From Nocardioidaceae bacterium (GTDB lineage: Bacteria; Actinomycetota; Actinomycetes; Propionibacteriales; Nocardioidaceae): DNA of 19,109 nucleotides. The stretch lies in assembly GCA_020438665.1 (NCBI GenBank), contig JAGQUE010000098.1, forward strand, positions 1 to 19,109, written 5' to 3'. The notes under the pieces are model-generated. The model was not told the DNA's origin and made no database searches. It saw only the letters and a list, made by a program, of their open reading frames with translations. Of this stretch, positions 2,095-19,109 are shown one piece after another. Every line of letters starts with the position of its first letter. Positions within the stretch are counted from its first letter, which is position 1. Both the position numbers and the translations under genes were made by a program.

Positions 2095-2123
2095 GCACTA
2101 CTCCAACCGTGTGAGGGGAAGGA

Positions 2124-2156
2124 TTCACACGAGTAGCAAGTTTCACACCAGTCACA
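2124..2156. promoter_or_regulatory. Candidate MtrA box array (9-bp phased direct repeats)
   Basis: The hexamers TTCACA (2124-2129), TTCACA (2142-2147) and GTCACA (2151-2156) on the plus strand are spaced by 18 and 9 bases. The intermediate slot 2133-2138 reads GTAGCA, a degenerate copy. Direct repeats of GTCACA-like hexamers with a 9-bp period are the described binding pattern of the actinobacterial response regulator MtrA, which controls cell-wall hydrolase genes. The array lies in the amidase leader, downstream of the proposed start of transcription, a position that would suit repression. The repeats are seen directly; assignment to MtrA is inference. Confidence 0.5.
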
Positions 2157-2179
2157 GGGGAACCGAAAGGGAATCTGAG

Positions 2180-2207
2180 TAACTACAACGCTGTAATTTC
2201 CAGTCAA
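2180..2207 (-). promoter_or_regulatory. Candidate promoter of the amidase gene
   Basis: Read on the minus strand, TTGACT (2207-2202) is followed after 16 bases by TAGTTA (2185-2180), giving a -35/-10 pair. Transcription would start near 2173 with a leader of about 79 nt. The local DNA is much more AT-rich than the surrounding coding sequence, which supports a promoter. Confidence 0.4.
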
Positions 2208-2213
2208 CACGCC

Positions 2214-2240
2214 GACCGGACATCAACTTTCTGTCCGGTC
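2214..2240. terminator. Perfect 9-bp inverted repeat after the ABC operon, probable hairpin terminator
   Basis: GACCGGACA (2214-2222) and TGTCCGGTC (2232-2240) are exact reverse complements around a 9-base loop. The hairpin starts about 33 bases past the ATPase stop codon and just before the amidase promoter, where a terminator is expected. There is no U-tract after the stem, so it is a GC-rich actinobacterial-type hairpin or possibly an operator. Confidence 0.5.
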
Positions 2241-2272
2241 TGGACCGCTGCGTCCACCGCCGTGGCGGCGCC

Positions 2273-3070
2273 TCAGATGTCGTCGCCGGTGTCCTCGTCG
2301 AAGTCCTCTTCGAGCTCGTCGCCCTCACCATCGGTGTCGACGTCGTCGGACTCGTAGTGCAGATAGCGGATGCCGGCATCGACGTCGCCGTCGAAGCCGA
2401 GCCGACCGTTCTCGAGCACCAGCACGCGGTCACACATCTTCTTGACCGAGCCGGCGGCGTGGCTGACATAGAACAGCGTCCGGCCGCTCTGGCGCACCTC
2501 CTCCATGCGCGTGAGGCACTTGCGCTTGAAGGGCTTGTCACCGACCGCCAGCGCCTCGTCGACCAGGAAGATGTCAGAGTCGACGTGGATGGCGATGGCG
2601 AACCCCAGCCGGGCGGTCTGTCCTGAGGAGTAGTGGCCGACCTGGGTGTCGAGCCGGTTGCCGAGCTCTGCGAACTCCACGATGTCGTCGAACTTGCGCC
2701 GGGTCTCGGCCTCGGTCATGCCGAGGATCGCTGCGTTGAGGTAGAGGTTCTCCCGACCGGTGAGGGTCGGGTGGAACCCGGCTCCCGTGGCGATCAGCCC
2801 GGCGATCCTGCCGCGGGTCAGCACACTGCCACCCTCGGGGCGCATCACCCCGCTGATCAGCTTGAGCAGCGTGCTCTTGCCGGAGCCGTTGAGCCCCATC
2901 AGGCCGATGGACTCACCCTGCTCGACGGTGAACGACACGTCGTTGACGGCGGTCAGCACCCGGCTGGTCGCCTCGCCCTTGAGCTTGGCGGCGGAGATCT
3001 GCTTGATGGTCCGGTGGAACCGGAGCGTGAACGTCTTGGTGACGTTCTCACACACGATGGAGGTGGTCAC
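2273..3070 (-). CDS. wzt: Polysaccharide ABC exporter, ATP-binding protein (Wzt/RfbE/TagH type)
   Basis: ATPase subunit (265 aa) that would power export of a lipid-linked surface glycan across the membrane together with the permease encoded just upstream. Walker A is GLNGSGKST (59-67). The Q-loop region has the polysaccharide-exporter sequence GAGFHPTLTGREN. The signature is YSSGQ (147-151) in place of LSGGQ, Walker B is FLVDEALAVGD (168-178) and the H-loop is SH at 203-204; this set marks the Wzt/TagH/RfbE family. The protein ends soon after the nucleotide-binding domain with a strongly acidic tail, so it lacks the C-terminal carbohydrate-binding domain of long Wzt proteins and resembles the short mycobacterial galactan-export ATPase (Rv3781). 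The GTG start at 3070 overlaps the permease stop by four bases (GTGA). Last gene of the operon. Confidence 0.9.
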   Translation of the reverse strand: MTTSIVCENVTKTFTLRFHRTIKQISAAKLKGEATSRVLTAVNDVSFTVEQGESIGLMGLNGSGKSTLLKLISGVMRPEGGSVLTRGRIAGLIATGAGFHPTLTGRENLYLNAAILGMTEAETRRKFDDIVEFAELGNRLDTQVGHYSSGQTARLGFAIAIHVDSDIFLVDEALAVGDKPFKRKCLTRMEEVRQSGRTLFYVSHAAGSVKKMCDRVLVLENGRLGFDGDVDAGIRYLHYESDDVDTDGEGDELEEDFDEDTGDDI

Positions 3071-3963
3071 AGGCGCTCCGGGATGCGGTTCTCGAGGCGG
3101 CTGAAGATGAGCTGGGAGATGCCGAGCAGCACCAGCGACGCGAGCAGCGTGGCGACCCCGACCAGCAGGATGTTGGCCGGCATGTCGGTGCGCATCGTCT
3201 CCGCCGGGTGGCTGGTGGTCCCGACCCAGAACGCGCGCTGCATGAGCAGGACGGCGTCGGCGAGTGGGTTGAAGAGGTAGAAGGGCGCCGCCGGTCCGAA
3301 CCGCTCCTGCACGATGCTGTAGGGATAGATCATCGGGACGCCGAACCGGACCAGGTGGTTCATCACGGTGACGACGTTGCCGAAGTCGCGGAAGAACACG
3401 TTGGCGGCACTGAACATCAACGCCGAGGCCGTTCCGAGGATCGCGATGATGAGGACGGCGAGGAGGAACGCGACCACTCCCCCGAAGTCCGGCATCCACC
3501 CATAGAACAACGAGGCGATCGTCAGGATCGCCACCTGCGGGCCGACGTGATAGAGCGAGGTCACCATCGTGGCGACCGGGAACATCTCGCGCGGCATCGC
3601 CATCTTCTTCACGATCGTCCGGTAGCGCACGATCGAGCGGGTGCCGGCCGAGAACGTCTCGACGAAGAAGTGGACGACGACCATGCCGGCGAAGATGTGG
3701 ATGCCGAAGTTCTCCAGGTCCTGGTGGAGCTGGAGCAGCCCGCTCATCAGGCCCCAATAGATGAGGAACTGGACCAGCGGGTTGACATAGGACCACAGCA
3801 GCCCCAGGAACGAGCCTTGGTAGCGCGCCGAGATCTCGCGCTGGACCAGCAGCTTGAGCAGGTAGCGCCGCTGGACGACACCGATCAGCCCGTTGCCGGC
3901 GGTCGGTGGCGTCAGCGGGAGCTGGCTCAGGTCGCGCTCCGGCGGGATCGCCGCTGCGGTCAT
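3067..3963 (-). CDS. wzm: Polysaccharide ABC exporter, permease (Wzm/RfbD, ABC-2 type)
   Basis: Integral membrane subunit (298 aa) of the surface-glycan exporter, partner of the ATPase downstream. After a cytoplasmic N-terminus with an amphipathic stretch ending in REISARYQGSFLGLLWSYVN, a hallmark of ABC-2 polysaccharide permeases, about six hydrophobic segments are visible. They begin near the FLIYWGL, FAGMVVVHFF, VAILTIASLFYG, FLLAVLIIAILG, FGVPMIYPYSIV and ILLVGVATLLASLVLLG runs. Family length is typical. The ATG at 3963 overlaps the upstream glycosyltransferase stop (ATGA), so translation is probably coupled; the open frame upstream of this ATG is only shadow of the glycosyltransferase. 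In Mycobacterium tuberculosis the RfbD/RfbE pair is tied to arabinogalactan galactan, and the neighbour here is GlfT2-like, which supports the same job. Confidence 0.9.
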   Translation of the reverse strand: MTAAAIPPERDLSQLPLTPPTAGNGLIGVVQRRYLLKLLVQREISARYQGSFLGLLWSYVNPLVQFLIYWGLMSGLLQLHQDLENFGIHIFAGMVVVHFFVETFSAGTRSIVRYRTIVKKMAMPREMFPVATMVTSLYHVGPQVAILTIASLFYGWMPDFGGVVAFLLAVLIIAILGTASALMFSAANVFFRDFGNVVTVMNHLVRFGVPMIYPYSIVQERFGPAAPFYLFNPLADAVLLMQRAFWVGTTSHPAETMRTDMPANILLVGVATLLASLVLLGISQLIFSRLENRIPERL

Positions 3964-5990
3964 GCGTCGTCCGAGCCCTCGAAGGTCGGCTTCCACGCCT
4001 CCGGCGACGCCAGCTCGGCGAGTGCGTCGCGGTAGCGCTGGGCCAGCTCGGGCCACTCGGTGTAGAGGCGGGCGTGGAGCTTGGTCGACCGGGAGAGCTG
4101 GTCGGCGAACCGCGACCGGTCACGGCGGTACCAGGAGGCGTTGAGCCCGTCGGCCGACGAGACGATCGCCGAGTCGAAGTGGGCCAGCCGGAACCAGCGC
4201 TGGTCGGCGTGGGGAACGACTCCCTCGGGCGCGACCTCGGCCAGCTCGCGGACCGGCAGCACCTGACGCACGAGACCCGTCGCCGCCATCATCACCTTGC
4301 CGGGCATGCTCGACGGCACGGGGATGCCCTTGCCGCGACGCGGCGGCTTCTTGGTGCGCGGCTTGGGGTAGCGGTCGAGCGAGGCCTCGGTGCGGCCGTC
4401 GTCGTAGTCGCCCCGCAGCGCCCGCACCTCGCCGAGACGCTTGACGATGTCGCGGTGCATGCGGTCGGGCCCGTCGAGCACGTCCTGGAGCGCCATCATG
4501 ATGATCTCGCCCGTGGAGTACTGCATCGACATCAGTCGCTTCACGTGGTTCTCGAGGCTTTCGCGCACGAGCTTGCCGCCGCGCTCATAGGGCGAGTGGA
4601 GGAGGCCGGAGACCAGCCGGTTGCGCTCGTGGAAATAGGCCTGCCAGTCGAGGGTGTCGTCCTTCTCGGTCCACGGCACGTGCCAGACGGCGACGCCCGG
4701 CATGGTGACGGTGGGATAGCCGGCCTCGCCCGCGCGCAAGCCGTATTCGGCGTCGTCCCACTTGATGAACATGGGCAGGGAGAGGCCGATGTCGTTGACG
4801 ACCTGGGTCGGGATGAGGCACATCCACCAGCCGTTGTAGTCGACGTCGATACGGCGGTGCAGCCACGGGGTGGAGCGGAGCGGCTTACGACCCCAGTCGT
4901 GACCGTGGACGGTGGCCGGGGCGGGTCCCCAGAACCAGCGGTACTTCTGGATGGCCTCGCCGTAGGCGTGCATGACGGTGCGGTCATAGAGGCTGAGCAT
5001 CTGGCCACCGACCAGCACCACCTGCTTGGCCAGGTCGGCCATCGCGACGGCCCGGTGGATGCCCTCGAGCTCGCTCACCACGTCGTCGTCGAGGAGCAGG
5101 ACATAGTCGGAGTCGCCCTTCTGGGCCGTCTCCATCATGGCGCGCGAGAAGCCGCCCGACCCGCCCAGGTTGCGCTGCTCGATGATGCGCAGCTTGTCGC
5201 CCAGCGAGGCGGAGACCGCGGCGAACCGGGCCTCGTCGGAGACCTTCTGGTTGCCCTGGTCGACGACGATGATCTCGTCGATGATCTCCAGCACGTCGGG
5301 GGCCTCGGACAAGCGGACCAGCTGGTCGACGCAGAAGTCGGGGCGGTTGAACGTCGTGATGCCGATGCTGACCGTGCCGGAGCGGGTCCGGTCGGTCTCG
5401 AAGCCCCAGGTGGCCTCTTCGAGGACGAAGCCCTCGTGCGACGCCTCGACGTCGAACCAGTACCAGCCGCCGTCGATGAACGGCTTGAGCGTCAGGTCGA
5501 GGGTGTAGGTCTGCGACTCCGTGCTGTTGACCGTGATGACCTCGGCACGCAGGGAGTGGCCCTTGGAGGTGGAGCGATAGACGATCAGGTTGCCGTGACC
5601 ACGCATCCGGGCGGTCAGGCGCACCGAGTCGAAGGTGGTCCAGCGCCGCCAATAGCTGGCCGGGAAGGCGTTGAAGTAGGTCGCGAAGCTGACCCGACGC
5701 TCCGGTTCGACCTCGATCTCGCCGTTCTCGGTGACCCGGCCATAGCCGCTGAGGCCGCCGAGGGTGTCGGTGGGCGAGAGCTGCTGCTGCTTGCTCTCCT
5801 TCTTGGAGTCGCCGTCGTATTCGGCGCCGGAGCGCCCGGTGGACGCGTCACCGCCGGTGAACGCCGAGATGCCGCCGAGGTAGAGCGAACGAACGTCGAG
5901 CTCCTCGTCCGGGCGGATCAGCGTGCGCTGCACGACTCGGAAACCCGCCCCCTCCACGCTCGCCGGAACTGCGTCTGTGGCCTGGGTCAC
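3960..5990 (-). CDS. glfT2: GlfT2-type galactofuranosyltransferase
   Basis: Processive GT2-family enzyme (676 aa) that in mycobacteria adds alternating beta-1,5/1,6 galactofuranose residues from UDP-Galf to a lipid-linked acceptor. The architecture follows GlfT2: N-terminal beta domain containing SFATYFNAFPASYWRRWTT (101-119), GT-A domain opening with ITTFNRPD (ends near 218), LGGSGGFSR, the metal-binding DDD at 301-303, WDDAEYGLRAGEAGYPTVT with Asp412/413 as expected catalytic residues, VWH with His437, then WQAYFHERNRLV and a helical C-terminal domain. The spacing from the second Asp to His (24 residues) equals that in the M. tuberculosis enzyme as I recall it. The N-terminus is about 50 residues longer, with a polar Gly/Ser/Lys/Gln-rich segment near 45-90. 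The GTG at 5990 was chosen for its AAGGA site 6-7 bases upstream; the long frame beyond it is antisense shadow. First gene of the export operon. Confidence 0.93.
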   Translation of the reverse strand: MTQATDAVPASVEGAGFRVVQRTLIRPDEELDVRSLYLGGISAFTGGDASTGRSGAEYDGDSKKESKQQQLSPTDTLGGLSGYGRVTENGEIEVEPERRVSFATYFNAFPASYWRRWTTFDSVRLTARMRGHGNLIVYRSTSKGHSLRAEVITVNSTESQTYTLDLTLKPFIDGGWYWFDVEASHEGFVLEEATWGFETDRTRSGTVSIGITTFNRPDFCVDQLVRLSEAPDVLEIIDEIIVVDQGNQKVSDEARFAAVSASLGDKLRIIEQRNLGGSGGFSRAMMETAQKGDSDYVLLLDDDVVSELEGIHRAVAMADLAKQVVLVGGQMLSLYDRTVMHAYGEAIQKYRWFWGPAPATVHGHDWGRKPLRSTPWLHRRIDVDYNGWWMCLIPTQVVNDIGLSLPMFIKWDDAEYGLRAGEAGYPTVTMPGVAVWHVPWTEKDDTLDWQAYFHERNRLVSGLLHSPYERGGKLVRESLENHVKRLMSMQYSTGEIIMMALQDVLDGPDRMHRDIVKRLGEVRALRGDYDDGRTEASLDRYPKPRTKKPPRRGKGIPVPSSMPGKVMMAATGLVRQVLPVRELAEVAPEGVVPHADQRWFRLAHFDSAIVSSADGLNASWYRRDRSRFADQLSRSTKLHARLYTEWPELAQRYRDALAELASPEAWKPTFEGSDDA

Positions 5991-6024
5991 GCGACTTCCT
6001 TCTGCTCGGGTCTCAAACGACACG

Positions 6025-6030
6025 AGGGTA
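6025..6030 (-). promoter_or_regulatory. Candidate -10 box of the glfT2-wzm-wzt operon
   Basis: On the minus strand this reads TACCCT (TANNNT), 34 bases before the GTG start, giving a leader of about 28 nt that contains the AAGGA ribosome site. No clear -35 is seen. A short motif, so chance occurrence is possible. Confidence 0.35.
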
Positions 6031-6065
6031 CCAGCGCGGGGGCCTGCCACCGCTTTCCCGCCTGC

Positions 6066-6071
6066 TAGCGT
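6066..6071 (+). promoter_or_regulatory. Candidate -10 box giving a leaderless transcript
   Basis: TAGCGT (TANNNT) ends 6 bases before the ATG at 6078, so RNA would begin at or next to the start codon. No Shine-Dalgarno sequence precedes this ATG. The arrangement matches leaderless actinobacterial genes. Confidence 0.45.
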
Positions 6072-6077
6072 TCCGGC

Positions 6078-7328
6078 ATGCCTCGCCCCTGGTTGGACCG
6101 GATCACGGGTCGCCCCAAGGCTCCTCGGATCTATCTCCACATCGGCGCCATGAAGACGGGGACGACGTTCCTTCAGGGCCTGATGAGCGCCAACCAGGAA
6201 GCCCTGGGTCGCGCCGGCTATCTGTTCCCGGGCGAGAAGTGGGCCGAGCAGAGCCTCGCGGTGCGCGATGTCATGTTCGACTCCGAGGACCCGCGCCTGC
6301 GCGCGCTCGTCGACGGCCAGTGGGACAAGATGCTCGACGCGATCCGGCACCACGACGGACCGGCGTCGATCCTGTCGATGGAGTTCCTGAGCTATGCCGA
6401 CGAGGACCAGGCCCGCCGCGTCGTGGAGTCCCTCGAGGGCCTCGACGTCCACATCGTCCTCACGGTGCGCGACGCCAAGTCCGCGATCCCGGCCCAGTGG
6501 CAGACCGGCTGCCGCAACGGCCGCCAGATCACCTATCAGCGGCTGGTGCGCAGCGTCCGGGCCCTGCTCGACGGCCAGGAGCCGGAGTGGGGCGCGGCCA
6601 AGTTCTTCCTCCGCACCCAAGGCATCGCCCGGATGCTCGACGTGTGGACCCCCCTCGTCGAGCCCAAGCACGTCCACGTGATCACGGTGCCACCCAAGGG
6701 CTCCGACCCCATGCTGCTGTGGCGACGGTTCGCCCAGGTGGTGGGCGTCGACCCGGCGGTGGCGACCAAGCCCCCGCCCGAGAGCAACCCCTCGCTCGGT
6801 CACGCCAGCAGCGAGCTGTTGCGGCGGGTCAACATCGAGCTCGGCGAGGTCCACCGCATCGACTACAACCGGGTGGTCAAGGCCGTCCTCGCCCGGCGCA
6901 TCCTGGCCGAGCGGGCCTCGCTCGAGCAGCCGGTGCGGCTCAACCGGCGTGGCCTCAACCTGGGCGCTCGCTGGAACCAACAGGTCCGCGACGCCATCAA
7001 GGGACACGGCGTCAAGCTCGTCGGCTCACTCGACGAGCTGCCCGTGGACCCGCCCGGCGACGACGTGCCTGTCGAGCTGCCCCGACCCACCGACGAGGAG
7101 ATCGTCGAGGCCGCGACGACGGCGCGCGACGGTCTGCTACGGCTGTGGGGGATCCTCTGCCGGGAGGCCGAGCTGCCGCCGCCGCCCCCGGCGGACGGCG
7201 TCCCCACGACCGCGGCGCGGTGGGCCGACGCCGAGGCCCCGGTCGCGGCCGCCGTCAGCGAGGTGACCGCCCTCGCCAGGACCTGCATCGAGATCCAGCG
7301 GGAGCACGGCTTCGACGTGCTCTGGTGA
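6078..7328 (+). CDS. Sulfotransferase-like protein 1 (PAPS-type fold)
   Basis: Member of a four-copy family in this window (416 aa). Near the N-terminus, YLHIGAMKTGTTFLQ (19-33) matches the 5'-phosphosulfate-binding P-loop of PAPS sulfotransferases (PKxGTT). The strand ending HIVLTVRD (125-132) followed by AIPAQWQ corresponds to the 3'-phosphate-binding segment. The family also shares the blocks HVHVITVPP, LLWRRF and NPSLG. This copy differs most from the others: the shared SHE motif reads SME (100-102), and the usual 3'-phosphate-binding Ser position after RD is Ala. The C-terminus is longer than in the paralogues, with a PPPPP run near 383. Expected role: moving a sulfuryl group to a cytoplasmic sugar intermediate, but the acceptor and even retained activity are unproven. 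Divergent from glfT2 across 87 bases. Confidence 0.75.
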   Translation: MPRPWLDRITGRPKAPRIYLHIGAMKTGTTFLQGLMSANQEALGRAGYLFPGEKWAEQSLAVRDVMFDSEDPRLRALVDGQWDKMLDAIRHHDGPASILSMEFLSYADEDQARRVVESLEGLDVHIVLTVRDAKSAIPAQWQTGCRNGRQITYQRLVRSVRALLDGQEPEWGAAKFFLRTQGIARMLDVWTPLVEPKHVHVITVPPKGSDPMLLWRRFAQVVGVDPAVATKPPPESNPSLGHASSELLRRVNIELGEVHRIDYNRVVKAVLARRILAERASLEQPVRLNRRGLNLGARWNQQVRDAIKGHGVKLVGSLDELPVDPPGDDVPVELPRPTDEEIVEAATTARDGLLRLWGILCREAELPPPPPADGVPTTAARWADAEAPVAAAVSEVTALARTCIEIQREHGFDVLW

Positions 7329-7343
7329 CCCGCGGGGCCGAGG

Positions 7344-8402
7344 TCAGCGGCGCGTGCGGGCGACGAGCTCGGCCACGGCCGCCCGGGCACGGGCCTCGTC
7401 GAGGTCGAGGTGCTCGAGGATGGTGAAGCGGTCGGGGCGCGTGGCCGGCGCGGCCAGCACGGCAGCGGTGAGCTGGTCCTCGGACAGGCCGATGTCGAGG
7501 GGATTGCGACCCAGCTCGTGACGGCCCAGGCAGGCCGCCATCTGGTCGAACGTCGGATCGTCCCCGCGCAGCAGCGTGGCGAGCAGGGCGCCGATGCCGG
7601 CGAGCTCACCATGGTTGGAGGTGCCGGGGAACAGCTGGTCGACCGCGTGGACGACCTCGTGGCAGGCGCCGCTGCACGGCCGCGACGTGCCGGCGACCGA
7701 CATCGCCATGCCCGAGAGCACCAGCGCCTCGGCCAGCGCGATCAGGAAGCTCTCGTCGTCGACGGTCTCCTGCCGGTGGATCACGGCGTCCGCCGCCGTG
7801 CGGGCGAAGGCGACGGCTAGGCCGTCCACGGCCTCGCCGCGCTCCCGGTGAGCCAGCATCCAGTCCTCGATCGCCGACAGGTTGCTGACCACGTCGCCCA
7901 CGCCCGCGGTCACCAGATGCCGCGGCGCCGCGCGGACATAGTCGAGGTCGACCACGACGGCCAGCGGCAGGGCGACGCCATAGGAGCCCTTGCCGTGCGG
8001 GTGCTCGAGGGAGGCGACCGGCGAGCAGATGCCGTCGTGGGCGAGGTTGGTGGCCACCGCGACCATCGGCAGCCCGGCGCGGGTCGCGGCATATTTCGCG
8101 ACGTCGAGGGTCTTGCCGCCGCCGATCGCGACCACGGCGTCATAGCCCCGCTCCCCGAGCGCCTGCTGCAGCTCACCGGCCGACGCGAGGCTGGCGTCCG
8201 GGACGGCGAACACCGAGGCCTCGGGCAGCGAGTCGCGGATGCGCGACCAGATCTCCTCCCCCTGCGACGGGCCGACGGCCACCAGGACGCGTCCGAGGCT
8301 GGAGATGGTGCGTTCGTGCAGCAGCGCCGCAAGGTTGTCCACCGCCCCGGACCGGATGTCGAGGAACAGCGGGCTCGCCAGCATGCGTGCTAGTACAGGC
8401 AT
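7344..8402 (-). CDS. sn-glycerol-1-phosphate dehydrogenase-type (AraM/EgsA-like) oxidoreductase
   Basis: Iron-containing-alcohol-dehydrogenase superfamily protein (352 aa) predicted to reduce dihydroxyacetone phosphate to sn-glycerol 1-phosphate with NAD(P)H. Visible features are the dinucleotide-binding GGGKTLDVAKY, the G1PDH-like segment NLAHDGICSPVASL, and candidate metal ligands in GVGDVVSNLSAIEDW (Asp), CHEVVHAVDQ (His) and SNHGELAG (His). The ATG at 8402 overlaps the cytidylyltransferase stop by 13 bases, implying translational coupling; an in-frame ATG at 8384 is a possible alternative, and neither has a strong ribosome site. Paired with a LicC-like nucleotidyltransferase, the likely purpose is to supply glycerol phosphate for activation as CDP-glycerol. 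Other Fe-ADH substrates, such as phosphonoacetaldehyde, cannot be excluded, though the HDG..SP segment argues for G1PDH. Confidence 0.8.
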   Translation of the reverse strand: MPVLARMLASPLFLDIRSGAVDNLAALLHERTISSLGRVLVAVGPSQGEEIWSRIRDSLPEASVFAVPDASLASAGELQQALGERGYDAVVAIGGGKTLDVAKYAATRAGLPMVAVATNLAHDGICSPVASLEHPHGKGSYGVALPLAVVVDLDYVRAAPRHLVTAGVGDVVSNLSAIEDWMLAHRERGEAVDGLAVAFARTAADAVIHRQETVDDESFLIALAEALVLSGMAMSVAGTSRPCSGACHEVVHAVDQLFPGTSNHGELAGIGALLATLLRGDDPTFDQMAACLGRHELGRNPLDIGLSEDQLTAAVLAAPATRPDRFTILEHLDLDEARARAAVAELVARTRR

Positions 8403-9124
8403 GCGATGTCCCGGGCCTTGGCAAGGTCGACGTGGTCGTCGACCTCGACCCACCGGGTGCCCGACGGGATCGGCGCGATATCGATGCGGCCACCGCGGTC
8501 GACGAGCTCCTGGTAGCCGTCCTCGTAATAGAGGTTGGGGTCGCGCTCGAAGGTCGCCTGGAGCGCGTCGGCCAGGCGCGGGACGACCGAGCCCTCCACC
8601 AAGGTGGCGCCGATGTACTCGCCATAGGCCGTCGCGGGATCCATCAGCTTGGTGATGCGCACCAGCTCGCGATCCGGGCCGACCTGGATCTTCATCTCCT
8701 CGTCGGCGAGCTTCTTCTCGGCGTCGATGGCGAGCAGGATGTCGGGACCGCGGGCCTCGAGCAGGGTCTGCTCGATCGAGACGGGGTGGACGGTGTCGCC
8801 GTTGACCATGAGCACGCCGTCGGTCATGTGTTCGCAGGCGAGCCAGAACGAGTAGGCGTTGTTCCAGATCTCGGCCTTGTCGTTGTGCACGAGCGTGATG
8901 TCGACGCCATAGCGGCGTTCGAACGTCGCGAGGCGGCTCTCGACCGCGTCGGCGGCATAGCCGACGACGATCACGACGTCGCGCAGCTCGACCTCGGCCA
9001 GGTTGCGCAGAGCGATGTCGAGGATGGTGGTGTCCCCGGCCACGGGGACCAGTGCCTTGGGAAGGGTGTCGGTGTAGGGGCGCAGCCGACGCCCGGCTCC
9101 GGCGGCCAGGACCATGCCGATCAT
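8390..9124 (-). CDS. LicC-like sugar/alditol-phosphate nucleotidyltransferase
   Basis: Cytoplasmic NTP-transferase (244 aa) that activates a phosphorylated small molecule as an NDP derivative. The N-terminal signature is MVLAAGAGRRLRPYTDTLPK, followed by ALVPV. The central segment NDKAEIWNNAYSFWLACE resembles the LicC phosphocholine cytidylyltransferase branch more than glucose-1-phosphate thymidylyltransferases. VNGDTV is the catalytic metal-binding strand. The product is probably a CDP compound. The overlapping G1P dehydrogenase downstream suggests sn-glycerol 1-phosphate as substrate, and the divergent LicD-like gene suggests the user of the product; both are inference. The ATG at 9124 begins right before the nucleotide-binding strand; a second ATG at 9115 is possible. 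The upstream GGGAG is about 12 bases away, a weak fit. Confidence 0.82.
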   Translation of the reverse strand: MIGMVLAAGAGRRLRPYTDTLPKALVPVAGDTTILDIALRNLAEVELRDVVIVVGYAADAVESRLATFERRYGVDITLVHNDKAEIWNNAYSFWLACEHMTDGVLMVNGDTVHPVSIEQTLLEARGPDILLAIDAEKKLADEEMKIQVGPDRELVRITKLMDPATAYGEYIGATLVEGSVVPRLADALQATFERDPNLYYEDGYQELVDRGGRIDIAPIPSGTRWVEVDDHVDLAKARDIACLY

Positions 9125-9174
9125 GGTGAGCGGAGGCTCCCTTCCTGATGACTTCCTCGGGGGTGTCGACCCGC

Positions 9175-9180
9175 AGGCTA
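9175..9180 (-). promoter_or_regulatory. Candidate -10 box of the cytidylyltransferase/G1PDH operon
   Basis: Reads TAGCCT on the minus strand, about 50 bases before the ATG at 9124. It shares the 108-base divergent intergenic region with the promoter of the LicD fusion gene. No clear -35 element. Confidence 0.35.
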
Positions 9181-9219
9181 CCCTCGCCGGCGCTGCTCGG
9201 AGGCGACCGGCCCGCGGTA

Positions 9220-9225
9220 TAGGCT
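9220..9225 (+). promoter_or_regulatory. Candidate -10 box giving a leaderless LicD-fusion transcript
   Basis: TAGGCT (within TATAGGCT) ends 7 bases before the ATG at 9233. No Shine-Dalgarno sequence lies in the gap, so a leaderless mRNA is the simplest reading. It also supports this ATG as the true start. Confidence 0.5.
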
Positions 9226-9232
9226 TCGCGCG

Positions 9233-10795
9233 ATGCTCCTCCAGCTCAGCGACAGCGAGATCCTGCTGCCCCTCGACCTCGCCGCGGACCAGACCTATGA
9301 CGTCCTCCTCAACGGGCAGCACGTGTGGTCGCTGCAGCCGTCACGCGACACGGTGCGGTCGCGGGGACACCTCACCGCGCGCTGGCCCAAGAACCTGCGC
9401 CGCTACCTCGTGGGCCGCGCCGAGGTGACCGTGCGTGACCACACCTCCGGCACGGTCGTCGGCACCGTCACCCACGTCTTCGGCGATGCGCCCGACCAGA
9501 TGGTCAGCGTCACCGACAAGGACGGCCACGCGCTGATCCTGGACAAGTACGGCAAGCTGACCCGGCCGCTGTCGGCCGAGGCGGACGACACCCTCCAGCA
9601 GCTGATGGACCACGTCGAGCGCCTGCTCGAGGTGCTGGCCCAGGACTGCGGCGTTCCGGCGTTCCTGGCCTACGGCACGCTGCTGGGGGCCGTGCGCAAC
9701 GGCAAGCTGATCGGGCACGACAACGACGTGGACCTCGGCTATGTCAGCGACTGCGACCACCCGGTCGACGTCATCCGTCAGTCCTTCCGCATCGAGCGGA
9801 CGCTCGCCGCGCAGGGCTGGACCGTGCGCCGCGGCTCGGGGACGCGCCTGAACGTCCGGATCCGCCTGCGCGACGGCACCATGCGCTTCATCGACGTCTT
9901 CACCTCCCACTGGGTCGAAGGCGTCTACTACATGCCGCAGGACACCGGGTTCCGGCTCCCCCGCGAGGCGATCCTGCCGTTGACGACGGTCGAGCTGCTC
10001 GGCCGGGCGCTCCCAGCGCCTGCCGACTATGAGCGTCTGCTCGCCGAGACCTACGGCCCTGGCTGGCGGGTGCCCGACCCGTCGTTTCGCTATGAGACGC
10101 CGCGCTGGCTGTCACGACGCATCGCGGGGTGGTTCGGCGGGCTCCGGGCCGGCCGCAAGCAGTGGGACGTCTTCTATGGTGCCCACCGCGACCTGCCGCG
10201 CCGGGCAACCACGTTCGCCGGCTGGGTGGACCGCAAGTTCCCCGCCGACCACCTGCTGGTCGACCTCGGCTCCGGCAACGCGCGCGATGCCATCTTCTTC
10301 GCCCAGCGTGGCCGGCCGGTGGTCGCCGTGGACTACAGCATGGGCATCGTGACGCGCTCCGCGGCGCGACCTAAGGTCCGGGCGCTGCCGATCACCCTCG
10401 AGTCGGTGAACCTCAACGACACGCGAGAGGTGCTGGCCCTGGGGATGCGGCTCGCCGAGCGCGACGCTCCCGTCGACCTCTATGGCCGCTTCCTCCTCCA
10501 CTCCCTGGAGAGCAAGGGGCGCGACAACGTGATCCGCCTGGCGTCGATGGCCATGCGCAGGGGCGGTCGGCTGCTGCTGGAGTTCCGCACGCTCGAGGAC
10601 GCCGAGCTGCCGCACCACTACCCCCAGAGCCAGCGCCACTTCCTCGATCCCGACGAGGTCGTCGCGGCGATCAAGGCACGGGGAGGCCGGATCCGCCACC
10701 TGTCCGCCGGCAGGGGACTGGCTCCGTTCCGCGACGAGGATCCTCACGTCTGCCGCATCGTCGCGACGTGGACCGGGCGGCGCGGCGCGGCGTAG
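9233..10795 (+). CDS. LicD-family phosphotransferase fused to a SAM-dependent methyltransferase
   Basis: Two-domain protein (520 aa). Residues 1-115 form a beta-rich region of unknown role. Residues about 120-290 are LicD/fukutin-like: AYGTLLGAVRNGKLIGHDND (147 onward), whose DNDVD (163-167) is the metal-binding acidic cluster, and IDVFT (220-224). LicD proteins move phosphocholine, and related fukutin-type enzymes move other phospho-alditols, from CDP donors to glycans. Residues about 330-515 are a class I methyltransferase: motif I LLVDLGSGNARD (341-352) and acidic motif II VAVDYS (364-369). An enzyme that both attaches a phospho-group and methylates, or that methylates the attached group or chain end, is plausible. 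The divergent LicC-like and G1PDH genes offer a donor pathway. Leaderless start; stop at 10793-10795. Confidence 0.82.
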   Translation: MLLQLSDSEILLPLDLAADQTYDVLLNGQHVWSLQPSRDTVRSRGHLTARWPKNLRRYLVGRAEVTVRDHTSGTVVGTVTHVFGDAPDQMVSVTDKDGHALILDKYGKLTRPLSAEADDTLQQLMDHVERLLEVLAQDCGVPAFLAYGTLLGAVRNGKLIGHDNDVDLGYVSDCDHPVDVIRQSFRIERTLAAQGWTVRRGSGTRLNVRIRLRDGTMRFIDVFTSHWVEGVYYMPQDTGFRLPREAILPLTTVELLGRALPAPADYERLLAETYGPGWRVPDPSFRYETPRWLSRRIAGWFGGLRAGRKQWDVFYGAHRDLPRRATTFAGWVDRKFPADHLLVDLGSGNARDAIFFAQRGRPVVAVDYSMGIVTRSAARPKVRALPITLESVNLNDTREVLALGMRLAERDAPVDLYGRFLLHSLESKGRDNVIRLASMAMRRGGRLLLEFRTLEDAELPHHYPQSQRHFLDPDEVVAAIKARGGRIRHLSAGRGLAPFRDEDPHVCRIVATWTGRRGAA

Positions 10796-10801
10796 TAGCC
10801 T
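10796..10801 (+). promoter_or_regulatory. Candidate -10 box before the coiled-coil gene
   Basis: TAGCCT starts directly after the LicD-fusion stop codon, 46 bases before the ATG at 10848. It would allow the coiled-coil and sulfotransferase pair to be transcribed independently of the LicD gene, although readthrough is equally possible. Confidence 0.3.
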
Positions 10802-10847
10802 GGCGCCGACTCAATCGACCGCGAGACGACCTGGGGGTTGTGGCCAG

Positions 10848-11102
10848 ATGAACGACCGGAAGCTGGGCGAGCGCGACCTGTTCCGCCTGGCTCAGAAGGT
10901 CCGCCCCGGCTCGACGCGGGTGCAGGTCGAGGAGCTGCGGCTGCGCATCGCCGAGCTCGAGACCGAGCTCCAGGAGGCCCGCCGTCTCAACGTCCGCGTG
11001 GCCGAGCTGCTCGACATCGTCGAGGAGCTGCTGGTGCCCTTGGCCCAGCGTGACGAGGCGAAGGTCAAGGCCTACCTCGACAGTCACGCGTCGGCCCTGT
11101 GA
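10848..11102 (+). CDS. Small coiled-coil protein (DUF6752-like)
   Basis: An 84-residue acidic soluble protein with no signal peptide. Residues 25-65 show a continuous heptad-like pattern of Leu/Ile/Val with Glu/Arg (VEELRLRIAELETELQEARR, then VAELLDIVEELLVPLA), so a dimeric coiled coil is expected. From memory it resembles the short actinobacterial proteins labelled DUF6752, often near cell-surface glycan genes; a family search would settle this. It ends 31 bases before sulfotransferase 2 and is probably co-transcribed with it. GGGGG about 11 bases upstream is a poor ribosome site. The function is unknown; a scaffold or partner for the glycan enzymes is a guess from position. Confidence 0.75.
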   Translation: MNDRKLGERDLFRLAQKVRPGSTRVQVEELRLRIAELETELQEARRLNVRVAELLDIVEELLVPLAQRDEAKVKAYLDSHASAL

Positions 11103-11133
11103 CCCGGCCGCAGCGTTGAGGAGCTGACCGCGG

Positions 11134-12240
11134 ATGGCACGTCGGGTCTTCCTTCACATCGGCCTCCCGAAGACCGGGACGACGTTCCTCCAGACGACCA
11201 TGTGGGAGAACCGTCCGGGACTGGCGAACCAGGGCTTCCTCTATCCCGGGCGCAACCGGATGGAGCACTACCGCGCGTCCCAGGAGGTCCGCGGCGCATC
11301 CGACAAGGCGATGGGCAAGCACGCCGGCACCTGGGCACGGCTGGTGCGCGACCTGGCCGCCTGGGACGGCAACGGGCTGGTCTCCCACGAGTTCTTCAGC
11401 ATGGCGACGCCGACCCAGGCCCGGGCCGCCGTCGAGGCCCTGGCACCCGCCGAGGTCCAGGTCGTGGTCACCGTCCGCTCCTATGTCCTCCAGTTCCCTG
11501 CCGTGTGGCAGGAAGCGCTCAAGATGAACTCGTCGCTCGGCTTCGACGACTTCATGGAGGAGGCCTTCGCCGGCCGCCTCAAGGGTGCCTGGGGCTGGGC
11601 CAGCCAGGACATCCCGGCCGTCCTCGACCGCTGGTCCGCCGCGGTGCCTCCCGAGCGACTGACCGTGGTGACCGTGCCGCCCCCCGGAGCGCCGCGCGGG
11701 CTGCTCTGGGAGCGGTGGTGCGAGGCCATCGGCATCGACGACCGGGAGTTCGACCTCGACGTCAGCTATGCCAACGAGTCGATCGGAGCCGCCCAGGCGG
11801 CGCTGCTACTGCGAGTCAAGCCGTTGCTGTCGGGCCCGCTCACCTCGGGCAATGTGCGCCACCGCTGGGTGCGTCAATACTTCGGCCACGAGGTGCTGGT
11901 GCCCCAGCGCGGCGACCGGTTCACGCCCCGCCCCGAGCACGCGGCGCGGCTCGCGGAGCGCAGCGCCGACGCGGTGGCGGCCATCCGCGCCGGCGGCTAT
12001 GCCGTTGTCGGTGACCTCGACGATCTGGTGTCGCCGGTCGTGCGCGACGGCGGCGCCTATCCCGACGACGTGACCGACGCAGAGGTGGTCGAGGTCGCCG
12101 CCCGCGCTATCGAGCAGATGATCCGCGACGTCAAGGCGCTCACCGAGGAGCGCGACGCGCTGCTGCGTCAGGCCGAGAACAGGTCGCCGACCGGGCTCGC
12201 CCGGCGCGCGCTGCGCCGGGCTCGTCGCGAGGACGGCTGA
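11134..12240 (+). CDS. Sulfotransferase-like protein 2
   Basis: Second paralogue (368 aa). The P-loop VFLHIGLPKTGTTFLQ is at residues 5-20, and family motifs SHEFFSMAT, VVVTVR, VWQE, LTVVTVPPPG and LLWERW follow. The 3'-phosphate segment reads RSYVLQFPAVW: the usual RD is RS and the canonical Ser is Ala, so nucleotide binding may be altered. GAGGAG ten bases before the ATG at 11134 supports the start. The C-terminal 40 residues are a charged helix ending in a very basic Arg-rich tail, which might touch membrane or acidic polymer. It follows the coiled-coil gene by 31 bases and faces the EEP gene convergently with 21 bases between. The fold is confident from the shared pattern; the acceptor is unknown. 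Confidence 0.78.
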   Translation: MARRVFLHIGLPKTGTTFLQTTMWENRPGLANQGFLYPGRNRMEHYRASQEVRGASDKAMGKHAGTWARLVRDLAAWDGNGLVSHEFFSMATPTQARAAVEALAPAEVQVVVTVRSYVLQFPAVWQEALKMNSSLGFDDFMEEAFAGRLKGAWGWASQDIPAVLDRWSAAVPPERLTVVTVPPPGAPRGLLWERWCEAIGIDDREFDLDVSYANESIGAAQAALLLRVKPLLSGPLTSGNVRHRWVRQYFGHEVLVPQRGDRFTPRPEHAARLAERSADAVAAIRAGGYAVVGDLDDLVSPVVRDGGAYPDDVTDAEVVEVAARAIEQMIRDVKALTEERDALLRQAENRSPTGLARRALRRARREDG

Positions 12241-12261
12241 CCCGGCTGGCCGGACCGCCGA

Positions 12262-13260
12262 TCAGGAGTCGGCCGGCAGGCAGACGTTCACGTGGTGGGA
12301 GAAGCAGGCTCGGTTGGAGAGCGTGTAGTCCATCACCAGCGGCCGGTGGTCGGAGCGGAAGCCCTCGAGGATGTTCTGGGCCGACGGTGTCACCCACCGA
12401 CGTGGCTGGTAGTAGCCATAGTCGATCAGCCGCTTGTCGAAACCGTTGGGCAGCACATGCGTGCCGTGCTCGGGCATCCCGAAGGTCGCATAGGTCGTCG
12501 TCATCCCGACCGCGGTGAGGTTGGCATAGGGGAAGACGTCCGGCGCCAGCACGCTGTCGGTCCGGTAGTTGACGTTGAGATCGCCGACGACATAGATGGC
12601 GCCACCGGTGGTGCTCTGGATCTGGGTGATCAGTGCCTGGAGACCCGCCATGTGCTGGCGATAGAGCTTGACCCGCTTGGGCAGCCGGGTGTTGGGACTG
12701 CCGTCACCGCGCTGCACCGTGGGCACCGCGTGGTTGTTGAGCACATAGACCTGACGGTTGGTGGCGATCGTCTTGAGCCGGACCCAGGTGATCCACTTCG
12801 CACGCAGCGTCGACGGGCCGGCACCGCGCGGTCCGACATAGGTGTCCTTGCTGACCTGGACCATGCCGGAGTCGAGGAGCGTGAACTTGTCGGACCGGTA
12901 GAGGATCGGCTGACCGCCCGGCACCGCCTCCACAGGCATGTAGCCGTCATAGAGGCAGGTCTCGCAGTCGAGGAAGTCGGCCCGCACCGCCGCCCGCTTC
13001 TGGCCGCTCGAGAACTCCTGGAGGGCGATGACGTCGACGCCGTCGTCGATGAGGCCCTGCACGTCACGGACGCTGCCCTTGACCTTGACCATGGAACCGG
13101 CGTTGTAGGAGGCGATCCGGATGGTCTCGGAGGCGGGGTCGGCCTGGCGCGTCGCGGCGTACGACGTCGCGCCGGGGACCAGCCCGGACGCGAGCGCGAG
13201 GGCACCGATGACAGCGGACAGCACGAGCCCCCGAGCTGGGCGACGAGCGGTGGGAGTCAT
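12262..13260 (-). CDS. Secreted endonuclease/exonuclease/phosphatase (EEP) family protein
   Basis: Exported phosphodiesterase-fold protein (332 aa) of the EEP (DNase I/exonuclease III/inositol phosphatase) superfamily. A signal peptide covers about residues 1-40 (hydrophobic run 12-28, probable cleavage after the SYAA region). Catalytic motifs are in order: SYNAG with Asn53, IALQEF with Glu82, NNHAV with His177, GDLNV with Asp227 and Asn229, and SDHRP with Asp304 and His305. Length fits extracellular nuclease-like members. Possible substrates are extracellular nucleic acid, phospholipid or glycerol-phosphate polymer, and the sequence does not decide. The ATG at 13260 has GGAAAGG about 8 bases upstream. 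It has its own promoter and a candidate MtrA box, so it is not simply the tail of the upstream operon. Confidence 0.88.
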   Translation of the reverse strand: MTPTARRPARGLVLSAVIGALALASGLVPGATSYAATRQADPASETIRIASYNAGSMVKVKGSVRDVQGLIDDGVDVIALQEFSSGQKRAAVRADFLDCETCLYDGYMPVEAVPGGQPILYRSDKFTLLDSGMVQVSKDTYVGPRGAGPSTLRAKWITWVRLKTIATNRQVYVLNNHAVPTVQRGDGSPNTRLPKRVKLYRQHMAGLQALITQIQSTTGGAIYVVGDLNVNYRTDSVLAPDVFPYANLTAVGMTTTYATFGMPEHGTHVLPNGFDKRLIDYGYYQPRRWVTPSAQNILEGFRSDHRPLVMDYTLSNRACFSHHVNVCLPADS

Positions 13261-13341
13261 GGGGCCAACCTTTCCGAACCTTGGCGTGTCGGCGCGGCAA
13301 AACGGCAGAACTTGCGCGACAATGCTCGTTTAACGCCCGTG

Positions 13342-13347
13342 ACTCTA
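13342..13347 (-). promoter_or_regulatory. Candidate -10 box of the EEP gene
   Basis: Reads TAGAGT (TANNNT) on the minus strand, about 82 bases before the ATG, giving a leader of about 75 nt. The proposed MtrA repeat lies 19 bases upstream, covering the -35 position. Confidence 0.4.
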
Positions 13348-13366
13348 GCCTCACTGGTGCGCTGCT

Positions 13367-13381
13367 GTCACACGCTTCACA
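13367..13381. promoter_or_regulatory. Candidate MtrA box upstream of the secreted EEP gene
   Basis: GTCACA (13367-13372) and TTCACA (13376-13381) on the plus strand form a direct repeat with a 9-base period, the same arrangement as upstream of the amidase. The site overlaps the -35 position of the proposed promoter, where an activator would bind. Assignment to MtrA rests on the known 9-bp GTCACA-like repeat and is inference. Confidence 0.5.
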
Positions 13382-13412
13382 GAAGAGCCCATTCTGACCA
13401 GCCGTCCCAGGT

Positions 13413-13425
13413 GTCGCGGCGCGAC
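13413..13425. terminator. Short hairpin after the sulfotransferase operon
   Basis: GTCGC and GCGAC pair exactly around a 3-base loop, five bases past the stop of sulfotransferase 3. The stem is only 5 bp with no U-tract, so the terminator call is weak and rests mainly on position. Confidence 0.25.
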
Positions 13426-13429
13426 CGGG

Positions 13430-14602
13430 TCAGCGGCGGGCGCGGAGCCGGCGAAAGAGCCCCAGCAGCCGCTGGAGCAAGGGCCGGCTCCGGGCACTCT
13501 GCACGAGGGCGAACCTGACCGGATGGTCGGTGGCCTGGGCGATGAGGTCCTGGGCCTTGCGACGGTTGTTGATCACGACGAGCAGGTCGGCGATGGCGGC
13601 GACGCTGTGCGGCAGCAGCGCCTCGGCGTCGGGCACGTGATAGCCGGTCGCGGCGAGGCGGCCGTCGGGCGCGGGCGGGGTCAGCTCGGCCAGGTCGCCG
13701 ACGACGTGGATCCCCAGCGCCGCGATCCGGTCGGCCACGGCCTGCGACTGCTCCGCCGCGAAGACGGCGTCGCCGGGGGCCAGCGCGAGGCGAGTGCCGG
13801 GATAGGTCTCGAGGATGCGGTGGGCAAGGACGTTCTTGACCACCAGGGGATAGGGGCCGGGCAGTGGGAGCCGGTCGCCGAGCGTCGCGTTGACCTGGCG
13901 CAGGAGCTCGGCCTGCTCCAGGCCGAGCGAGGTGTTGGAGCGGGGCAGGTCGGTGTCGAAGGCCGCCGGGTCGAGGCCGAGCAGGGTGGCGAACCGCCGC
14001 CAGAGCCCGTCGGGCGGCGTCCCGGCCGGTGGGACCGTGATCACGTGGACCTGCTTCGGTGGCAGGGTGGCGCCCCAGCGCTCGAGCACCCCGGCGAAGT
14101 CCTGTACCTGCCAGAACCAGCTCGTCCGCGCCGCGTCGCCACGCGCGTCGGCGACGAACTGCTCGAGCGTCCTGGTCGAGCGGTGTTTGACGTGCTCCTG
14201 CCACTCGGCGGTCAGCTGTCGCACCAGGTCGCGCGCCGTCAGCACGACGTGAACCTCGGCCCCACCCTGCACGAGATCGGCGATCCCCCGGGCGGCCTGG
14301 TCGGCGGTGGCGGCCGCGAACAGCTCGTGGGAGATGAGGGTGGTGCCACGGTGACCGCTGGCCTCGGCGGCGAGCGTGGCCCACATGCCGACCGCGCGGG
14401 GCGGATGGACCGGCCGCTCGGACAGGCCCCGGAGGTCGAGGGTGGCGAGATAGTGGTCGTCGAAGCGCTCCCCCGGCAGCAGCAGCCCCTGCTCCGACGC
14501 GCGTTCGCGTTGGGACCAGAGCACGTTCTGGAGGAAGGTGGTGCCGGTCTTGGGGCTCCCGACGTGCAGGAACACACGGGACCGACCCGCTCCGTTGCTC
14601 AT
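13430..14602 (-). CDS. Sulfotransferase-like protein 3
   Basis: Third paralogue (390 aa) and last gene of the phospholipase-D/sulfotransferase operon. The P-loop VFLHVGSPKTGTTFLQ lies at residues 10-25. SHELFAAAT, VHVVLTARDLVRQLTAEWQE, QVHVITVPPAGTPP and LLRQVN are shared with the other copies. The RD of the 3'-phosphate segment is present, but the canonical Ser is Ala. The C-terminus is Arg-rich (LLGLFRRLRARR), suggesting an amphipathic, perhaps membrane-touching helix. Start choice: a GTG at 14611 overlaps the upstream stop (GTGA) without a ribosome site, while the ATG at 14602 has AGGGTG about 6-8 bases upstream; the latter was preferred, adding or losing only three residues. Probable donor is PAPS; acceptor unknown. 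Confidence 0.78.
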   Translation of the reverse strand: MSNGAGRSRVFLHVGSPKTGTTFLQNVLWSQRERASEQGLLLPGERFDDHYLATLDLRGLSERPVHPPRAVGMWATLAAEASGHRGTTLISHELFAAATADQAARGIADLVQGGAEVHVVLTARDLVRQLTAEWQEHVKHRSTRTLEQFVADARGDAARTSWFWQVQDFAGVLERWGATLPPKQVHVITVPPAGTPPDGLWRRFATLLGLDPAAFDTDLPRSNTSLGLEQAELLRQVNATLGDRLPLPGPYPLVVKNVLAHRILETYPGTRLALAPGDAVFAAEQSQAVADRIAALGIHVVGDLAELTPPAPDGRLAATGYHVPDAEALLPHSVAAIADLLVVINNRRKAQDLIAQATDHPVRFALVQSARSRPLLQRLLGLFRRLRARR

Positions 14603-14607
14603 GGCCG

Positions 14608-17144: not shown

Positions 17145-17190
17145 CAAACCCCCGAACCTCGATAGCGGACAACTCCGGATCTGCGGGCTC

Positions 17191-17196
17191 AGGATA
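17191..17196 (-). promoter_or_regulatory. Candidate -10 box of the PLD/sulfotransferase operon
   Basis: Reads TATCCT (TANNNT) on the minus strand, 46 bases upstream of the GTG, giving a leader near 40 nt. A perfect short palindrome sits just upstream, over the -35 zone. Confidence 0.4.
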
Positions 17197-17198
17197 AC

Positions 17199-17211
17199 CA
17201 CAGGACCTGTG
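17199..17211. promoter_or_regulatory. Operator-like palindrome CACAGG-A-CCTGTG
   Basis: A perfect 6-bp inverted repeat around one base, immediately upstream of the -10 box of the PLD operon and between two divergent genes. Position and symmetry suit a dimeric repressor or activator. No regulator can be named. Confidence 0.35.
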
Positions 17212-17247
17212 TTCCCCGAAGACCCCGAAGCCGACACGTGCAACGGG

Positions 17248-17253
17248 TATGCT
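17248..17253 (+). promoter_or_regulatory. Candidate -10 box of the second EEP gene
   Basis: TATGCT (TANNNT) lies 90 bases before the GTG at 17344. Transcription starting near 17260 would give a leader of about 84 nt that contains a stable hairpin. No clear -35 element. Confidence 0.4.
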
Positions 17254-17274
17254 GAGGCGACGTCACGGTCGGAC

Positions 17275-18432: not shown

Positions 18433-19109
<677 letters not shown>

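Follow-up and report, generated by a model that had tools for sequence, protein, structure and literature searches.

A predicted soluble route to CDP-sn-1-glycerol encoded beside a LicD-methyltransferase fusion in a Nocardioidaceae bacterium

Bacterial walls are described as drawing their sn-3 glycerol phosphate units from cytosolic CDP-glycerol and the sn-1 units of lipoteichoic acid from phosphatidylglycerol; passages of PMC5974469 make both statements, which the initial annotation of the DNA analysed here took as its premise. In this article we describe a gene pair that may depart from this division. It lies in a 19,109-nucleotide stretch from a Nocardioidaceae bacterium (GenBank assembly GCA_020438665.1, contig JAGQUE010000098.1, positions 1 to 19,109), which we call the window, and encodes a nucleotidyltransferase with the fold of LicC (NT) and a dehydrogenase of the sn-glycerol-1-phosphate dehydrogenase type (G1PDH). 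Divergent from the pair is a gene for a fusion of a LicD domain with a methyltransferase domain (LicD_MT). Sn-glycerol 1-phosphate (G1P) is treated as a mark of archaea, and its use in bacteria is mostly unexplained.

Several described systems resemble parts of this locus. The TagD/TarD and TagF-type enzymes of wall teichoic acid synthesis have the same proposed product class, CDP-glycerol, and the same proposed role, and a TagD occupies the place of the NT-G1PDH pair in one related locus, L044 (L and G numbers are our handles for loci and genomes). TagD/TarD differs in its fold, which belongs to the HxGH family (PF01467) and is unrelated to the NTP_transferase fold of NT, and in using sn-glycerol 3-phosphate from general metabolism, whereas the dedicated G1PDH implies the mirror-image substrate here. 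In vitro, the TagD-type enzymes from Actinobacillus can use either enantiomer, and a preference for sn-3 is suggested (passage of PMC8262930). LicC, the CTP:phosphocholine cytidylyltransferase that works with LicD, has the fold and the LicD partner in common with the window NT but differs in that Asn108 replaces an amine-side acid in NT and that NT is coupled to a G1PDH. The Caulobacter CTP:phosphoglycerate cytidylyltransferase CpgD is, like LicC, of the COG1213 type and unrelated to TagD, and it handles an amine-free three-carbon phosphate (passage of PMC12275187). Its reported glycerate contacts are Asn90 and Asn110, followed by Gly111 and Asp112 (passages of PMC13228409 and, for Asp112, PMC12275187), and Asn110-Gly111-Asp112 resembles N108-G109-D110 of NT when the register is set by motif. 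CpgD differs in activating phosphoglycerate for a sphingolipid, and the passages concerned do not mention a G1PDH. In Bacillus, AraM/EgsA, of the same dehydrogenase family, makes G1P in connection with heptaprenylglyceryl phosphate (passage of PMC5059525). A Streptomyces synteny block consisting of tagGH, araM, a nucleotidyltransferase and a CDP-alcohol phosphotransferase (passage of PMC13118837) probably contains the same NT-G1PDH pair as our loci L031-L038 (G1PDH 50-53% identical); it differs in having CDP-alcohol phosphotransferases rather than LicD, and the passage proposes no CDP-glycerol route.

The open-licence literature yielded nothing under the names glycerol-1-phosphate cytidylyltransferase or CDP-1-glycerol, and the pathway is absent from the titles and abstract openings found. 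To our knowledge, a mirror-image CDP-glycerol route is also absent from textbooks. Work by Rodrigues from 2017 is said to describe a glycerol-phosphate cytidylyltransferase activity in Archaeoglobus that prefers G1P, the gene not being identified; this would be the same reaction, differing in that it is archaeal and serves a solute. As a possible parallel to this locus, a Bifidobacterium galactofuranan is reported to carry sn-glycerol-1-phosphate. A passage of a review (PMC12413058) mentions a phosphoglycero-beta-galactofuran of B. bifidum.

The reading that we favour, with a probability of roughly two in three, is a route from dihydroxyacetone phosphate through G1P and CDP-sn-1-glycerol to glycerol phosphate on a galactan. 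It would comprise three steps: 1) G1PDH would reduce dihydroxyacetone phosphate to G1P, 2) NT would couple G1P with CTP to give CDP-sn-1-glycerol and 3) the divergently encoded fusion would use its LicD domain to transfer glycerol 1-phosphate to a hydroxyl of a galactofuranan, which the GlfT2-type and Glf proteins would have produced and Wzm/Wzt would then export. The methyltransferase domain may add a methyl group to the product or to the end of the glycan. We infer the chemistry, the stereochemistry and the methyl step, and take the acceptor from the neighbouring genes; the system would probably amount to CDP-glycerol supply and transfer with the opposite stereochemistry, its components being a G1PDH and a LicC-fold enzyme.

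What was observed directly is that the genes are there, overlap and are inherited together, and that a TagD takes their place in one related locus. The initial annotation had described a G1PDH-type gene overlapping a LicC-like gene, and this is borne out: both open reading frames (ORFs) lie where it placed them, overlap by 13 nucleotides and have Pfam, NCBIfam and PDB matches. An overlap of exactly this length recurs in all 18 other adjacent pairs tested, that is, in 19/19 with the window, which is not chance and suggests translational coupling. All of the following counts rest on homology matches, and heuristic gene calls miss or merge genes. Among 118 Nocardioides genomes, NT (E 1e-30) is found in seven and G1PDH (E 1e-10) in the same seven, an eighth genome (G102) having only a weak match to the G1PDH query at E 6e-12; the Fisher test gives 2e-11 with kinship ignored. 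Across 296 Actinomycetota genomes NT occurs at E 1e-30 in 15, of which 14 carry a G1PDH of 50-74% identity, and G1PDHs of at least 50% identity are confined to those 14. The fifteenth, G123, has an NT of 33% identity and no G1PDH. More distant G1PDHs (35-45% identity) are present in 19 further genomes, and the loci of 14 of these were read. All 14 have a LicC-like NT (26-34% identity; 6/14 checked by Pfam) upstream on the same strand, within 340 nucleotides in 13 and at 3.4 kb in one, so that G1PDH is accompanied by a LicC-like NT in every such locus read.

At the G123 locus (L043:6311-9100) the NT, with Asp at position 108, is found with a CDP-alcohol phosphotransferase and a class V aminotransferase, which resembles a module for activating compounds of the amine or phosphonate type. 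In the distant loci L076-L089, where a divergent NT occurs with G1PDH, a DUF4012 protein was found in L076, L088 and L089 and a sugar transferase in L076 (among those scanned), and each of the three loci that were scanned for a protein of the type I phosphodiesterase fold (L076, L084 and L088) has one following; L076-L089 probably serve another surface polymer that draws on the same donor.

The distribution of TagD provides further evidence. With the TagD of L044 (genome G026) as the query and E<1e-25 taken as strong, a strong match is present in 101 of 111 NT-negative and in 0 of 7 NT-positive Nocardioides genomes (Fisher 4e-7, again ignoring kinship). Six of the seven have no TagD match even at 1e-5, and the seventh, G045, has one of only E 4e-19. 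L044 has the same gene order as L001 and L025, namely Wzm, GlfT2, two genes for the sulfotransferase-like protein ST1, the slot, a small coiled protein gene (coil), ST2, LicD_MT and a pyruvyl transferase, and continues with genes for a PLD protein, EEP1 (of the endonuclease/exonuclease/phosphatase fold, EEP), ST3 and ST4. The slot that elsewhere holds NT and G1PDH is filled in L044 by a glycosyltransferase family 2 (GT2) gene, assigned by Pfam, and a 137-residue TagD. The latter is a CTP_transf_like protein in Pfam, has the B. subtilis glycerol-3-phosphate cytidylyltransferase 1coz as its best PDB match (E 4e-34) and is the sole TagD match of G026 at E 1e-5. The LicD_MT of the same genome is the nearest relative outside the NT genomes, 51% identical, and forms a clade with the NT-linked LicD_MTs (support 100/100), within which the NT-only fork is weakly supported (83/71). 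Every one of the 111 LicD_MT-positive Nocardioides genomes has an NT or a TagD-type match (E 1e-5), and among 49 weak match positions considered, a more distant TagD-type gene lies 23-245 nucleotides upstream of LicD_MT on the same strand in at least 35 genomes. NT itself falls outside the TagD family, since it lacks the HxGH/ISTT fold (PF01467) and belongs to PF00483/PF12804; the TagD model TIGR01518 exceeds its cut-off in 0/21 NT genomes, with sub-cut-off matches in 7/21. Two unrelated putative makers of CDP-glycerol in one slot, one of them with a dedicated maker of G1P, are what a mirror-image hypothesis predicts.

As for the transferase, the divergent LicD-like phosphotransferase of the initial annotation stands as a divergent gene with a PF04991 domain, but its C-terminal methyltransferase domain had been overlooked. 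The PF04991 match (35 bits against a cut-off of 22.6) spans only residues 140-168, and the only match in the PDB search is fukutin-related protein (FKRP), with residues 135-291 aligned to FKRP 292-447. D163, D165 and D167, which we take to be the LicD Asp metal motif, are invariant in 22/22 rows of the alignment. For the C-terminal part the best Foldseek match of the model is a methyltransferase, Pfam Methyltransf_25 reaches E 0.005, under its cut-off, and D344, G346 and G348 are invariant in 22/22 rows.

LicD_MT is the candidate user of the donor in Nocardioides. It is unlikely, in our estimate, that NT makes CDP-glycerol for some other transferase, as might be supposed from the LicD_MT relatives in 111/118 Nocardioides genomes, 104 of them without NT, and from loci L031-L038 of large genomes (7-10 Mb), where the pair occurs with two CDP-alcohol phosphotransferases, of which one is a DUF5941 fusion, and no LicD_MT match. 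The close copies of LicD_MT (57-64%) are confined to NT genomes and stand in the same locus, TagD-type genes directly precede LicD_MT in the 35 or more genomes given above, and 6/7 Nocardioides NT genomes lack a strong TagF match (in two of these six, partial matches of low score still exceed the Pfam cut-off). Outside Nocardioides the surroundings of the pair vary: L031-L038 also have a GT2 gene near the pair and a Wzt match in each, L033 has squalene/phytoene synthase genes nearby, and in G226 NT adjoins a TagF-like protein (PF04464, E 2e-5), its G1PDH being located on the same contig at a distance of about 15 kb, next to a CDP-alcohol phosphotransferase. The donor module seems to be constant and the transferase variable, and because the same module stands beside CDP-alcohol phosphotransferases or a TagF-like protein in related Actinomycetota it looks like a general donor module.

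The identity of the substrate depends on both enzymes of the pair. By family match the window dehydrogenase is predicted to be a G1PDH (EgsA/AraM) that converts dihydroxyacetone phosphate to G1P. Its best NCBIfam match is PRK00843, NAD(P)-dependent glycerol-1-phosphate dehydrogenase (246 bits), the runner-up family being glycerol dehydrogenase at E 2e-14, and its top three PDB sequence matches (4rfl, 4rgq and 5fb3) are all named G1PDH. H248 and H264 are invariant in 13/13 rows of the alignment and D170 is kept in 12/13, all three being present in the window protein; we take them to be the Asp, His, His metal ligands of G1PDH. NT matches Pfam NTP_transferase (PF00483, E 5e-13) and PF12804, and LicC (1jyk) is both its best PDB sequence match and the top Foldseek match (E 5.5e-19) of its AlphaFold2 model (pLDDT 95.7), followed by the Thermotoga inositol-phosphate cytidylyltransferase (IMPCT) and PntC. 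A profile built from 22 NTs finds PntC, LicC and IMPCT as its best PDB matches, all of them CTP enzymes; in the structure comparison, enzymes for other nucleotides reach similar Z scores to CTP enzymes. The GxGxR...PK signature is present, with G9, G11, R13, P22 and K23 invariant in 22/22 rows. Another short polyol phosphate made by the G1PDH homologue, converted by NT to a different CDP-polyol whose unit the LicD protein would transfer, is a doubtful alternative: the dehydrogenase scores below the PRK00843 cut-off, the NT fold family accepts many phosphates and LicD relatives such as FKRP use CDP-ribitol (passage of PMC8587909), but the nearest solved relatives of the dehydrogenase are named G1PDH, its sequence motifs are kept, and the TagD in the slot of L044 points to glycerol.

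G1P might also have another fate. PcrB, the known bacterial consumer of G1P and presumably the heptaprenylglyceryl phosphate enzyme of Bacillus, exceeds its cut-off in 0/21 NT genomes (G226 has the single match below threshold) and in 5/14 control genomes, and unlike the product of the Bacillus AraM/PcrB system that of the present locus appears to be nucleotide-bound. PlsY and PlsC are reported to use both enantiomers (a 2026 paper, PMC13400652), and since they may accept either one, G1P may have a role in lipids. We nevertheless regard it as improbable that G1PDH serves membrane lipids with sn-1 glycerol through PlsY/PlsC while NT uses sn-glycerol 3-phosphate or both enantiomers, an explanation that would account neither for the absence of true G1PDH without NT in the Nocardioides sample nor for the 13-nucleotide overlap.

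The substrate pocket of NT bears on its relation to LicC. Glu104 of PntC is equivalent to Asp105 of LicC and is positioned, together with Glu196, to bond the amine of aminoethylphosphonate (passage of PMC6697681). In our alignment the position of PntC Glu104 is Asn108 in NT. Asn108 is found in 22/22 rows of alignment A1, for whose database rows the genomic linkage is not known, and in 24/24 G1PDH-linked NTs read, including the 14 distant ones; the unlinked NT of G123 has Asp. NT is thus not LicC proper, as it has Asn108 where the first amine-side acid (LicC D105, PntC E104) would stand, and this replacement, while no proof given that Glu201 is kept, speaks against a cationic substrate and suits glycerol phosphate. 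Phosphocholine was rejected as the main substrate on the strength of N108 and of the unvarying association with G1PDH. That NT is a true LicC which supplies the LicD domain with activated phosphocholine or phosphoethanolamine, beside an unrelated G1PDH, is highly improbable in view of Asn in 24/24 linked NTs and the constant overlap and co-inheritance with G1PDH, even though databases label its relatives 'phosphocholine cytidylyltransferase family' or 'choline kinase', LicC is the top Foldseek match, Glu201 is kept and the methyltransferase of the LicD protein could build choline. Among the matches listed, the source names of the NT family are choline kinase, phosphocholine cytidylyltransferase family, sugar phosphate nucleotidyltransferase and glucose-1-phosphate adenylyltransferase, and some of these are likely misleading.

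Several observations weigh against the G1P route. The genome counts ignore phylogeny, and the LicD_MTs of six of the seven Nocardioides NT genomes fall in one clade. The seventh, G045, has a LicD_MT that is just 41-44% identical, a G1PDH separated from NT by 2.2 kb, a strong match to TagF and a weak TagD-type gene. A TagD inside the locus is a single case (L044), and where distant TagD-type genes adjoin LicD_MT their product may be a different CDP-alcohol. Mutual exclusion of TagD and NT was not seen across the phylum, where TagD (E 1e-20) is rare and occurs in 2/15 NT genomes versus 15/281 others, and the absence of TIGR01518 says little, since the TagD of L044 itself scores 116 bits against a cut-off of 165. 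The 246 bits of G1PDH lie under the curated PRK00843 cut-off of 413. The second amine-side acid (LicC D192, PntC E196) is present in NT as Glu201, invariant in 22/22 rows, and the fold alone does not fix the substrate, because the fold family covers choline phosphate, aminoethylphosphonate, inositol phosphate and phosphoglycerate. The path that the initial annotation had traced, from dihydroxyacetone phosphate through glycerol 1-phosphate and CDP-glycerol to a glycan-linked glycerol phosphate, is nonetheless, as a prediction, the reading that comparative evidence favours most, namely the exact co-occurrence of G1PDH and NT in the Nocardioides sample, the lack of TagD where the pair occurs and its place in the slot of one related locus, the lack of PcrB over cut-off, the overlap and N108.

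The features of the window are collected in Table 1. The window is high-GC actinobacterial DNA, and the closest named locus in the LicD_MT scan is L001 of Nocardioides silvaticus, with a 64% identical LicD_MT and nearly the same gene set. The stop codon of G1PDH has its final base at 7344, and the LicD gene ends at 10795; the mechanical ORFs begin too early, the conserved starts (both ATG) being at 8402 for G1PDH and at 9124 for NT.

Table 1. Coordinates of the gene pair, the fusion gene and the surrounding features in the window
Feature	Position	Strand	Evidence
sn-glycerol-1-phosphate dehydrogenase (G1PDH; EgsA/AraM type), 352 aa	7344..8402	-	PRK00843 E 5e-73; PDB G1PDHs 4rfl/5fb3
LicC-fold cytidylyltransferase NT, 244 aa, proposed CTP:sn-glycerol-1-phosphate cytidylyltransferase	8390..9124	-	PF00483; LicC-like model; N108 signature
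Overlap of NT end and G1PDH start, 13 nt	8390..8402	-	same length in 19/19 adjacent pairs
LicD-methyltransferase fusion LicD_MT, 520 aa, proposed glycerophosphotransferase	9233..10795	+	PF04991 E 2e-8; FKRP 6kaj E 9e-5
LicD catalytic core, ~residues 118-290 (limits by eye)	9584..10102	+	FKRP alignment; model
Class I S-adenosylmethionine (SAM) methyltransferase domain, ~residues 311-515 (limits by eye)	10163..10777	+	Foldseek 4nec E 2e-11
Small coiled protein gene accompanying LicD_MT	10848..11102	+	tblastn: present in 28/28 LicD_MT loci read
GlfT2-type galactofuranosyltransferase	3960..5987	-	Pfam GlfT2_domain3 E 1e-43, Glft2_N E 2e-32
Wzm-like ABC exporter permease (ORF start uncertain)	3067..4056	-	PF01061 E 2e-12; NCBIfam galactan_ABC_perm E 5e-10, sub-cut-off
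Wzt/TagH-like ABC exporter ATPase (approximate limits)	2351..3073	-	NCBIfam teichoic acid exporter E 1e-55, galactan_ABC_ATP E 6e-42 (both sub-cut-off, computed on longer ORF 2273-4123)
UDP-galactopyranose mutase Glf, truncated by window end	18448..19107	-	TIGR00031 E 3e-51
Sulfotransferase-like protein ST1, flanking the NT-G1PDH pair	6078..7328	+	KTGTT motif

From the neighbouring genes we infer a Nocardioides-type galactofuranan wall or capsule locus with ABC export. NT adjoins LicD_MT in the window, where LicD_MT precedes coil and ST2 and there is a single ST1; this divergent adjacency is atypical, as coil and ST2 intervene in L001 and L024-L028, together with an ST3-like gene in L026-L028. 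A promoter and terminator scan over 7200-11150 found no signal.

The remaining genes of the window include four paralogous sulfotransferase-like proteins, ST1-ST4 (6078-7328, 11134-12240, 13430-14611 and 14608-15741), whose relatives adjoin LicD_MT in many other Nocardioides loci. None of the four matches Pfam by itself; a relative in L001 matches Sulfotransfer_3 below threshold (E 3e-5), and the KTGTT motif of ST1 is presumably P-loop-like. The galactan may be sulfated. Two EEP-fold proteins, with weak Pfam scores of which one is sub-cut-off, and one PLD-like protein are encoded at 12262-13260, 15738-17393 and 17017-18432; such genes recur next to LicD_MT elsewhere, for example in L053-L059 and L061-L063, and they possibly have a role in turnover of wall phosphodiesters. 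A large protein on the minus strand at 1-2094 has an Amidase_2 domain (E 2e-10) and FG-GAP repeats (E 6e-20), and its relatives flank the locus in L026-L029. A polysaccharide pyruvyl transferase (PF04230) is present at L001:11529-12728 and also in L024, L025 and L044; the homology search of locus genes found no match to it in the window.

On balance we lean towards a broader interpretation, in which Actinomycetota possess a widespread and unrecognised soluble CDP-sn-1-glycerol route that would replace TagD in some Nocardioides and feed LicD, CDP-alcohol phosphotransferase or TagF-like enzymes, giving wall glycerol phosphate with a stereochemistry opposite to that of classical wall teichoic acid. 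If this is true, a cytosolic CDP route would give G1P a function in the bacterial wall and would break the rule that CDP-glycerol is of the sn-3 series and sn-1 units come from phosphatidylglycerol. It would also name a gene for an enantiomer-specific cytidylyltransferase, explain the purpose of bacterial G1PDHs in Actinomycetota, and correct database labels across a large family, choline kinase and phosphocholine cytidylyltransferase among them.

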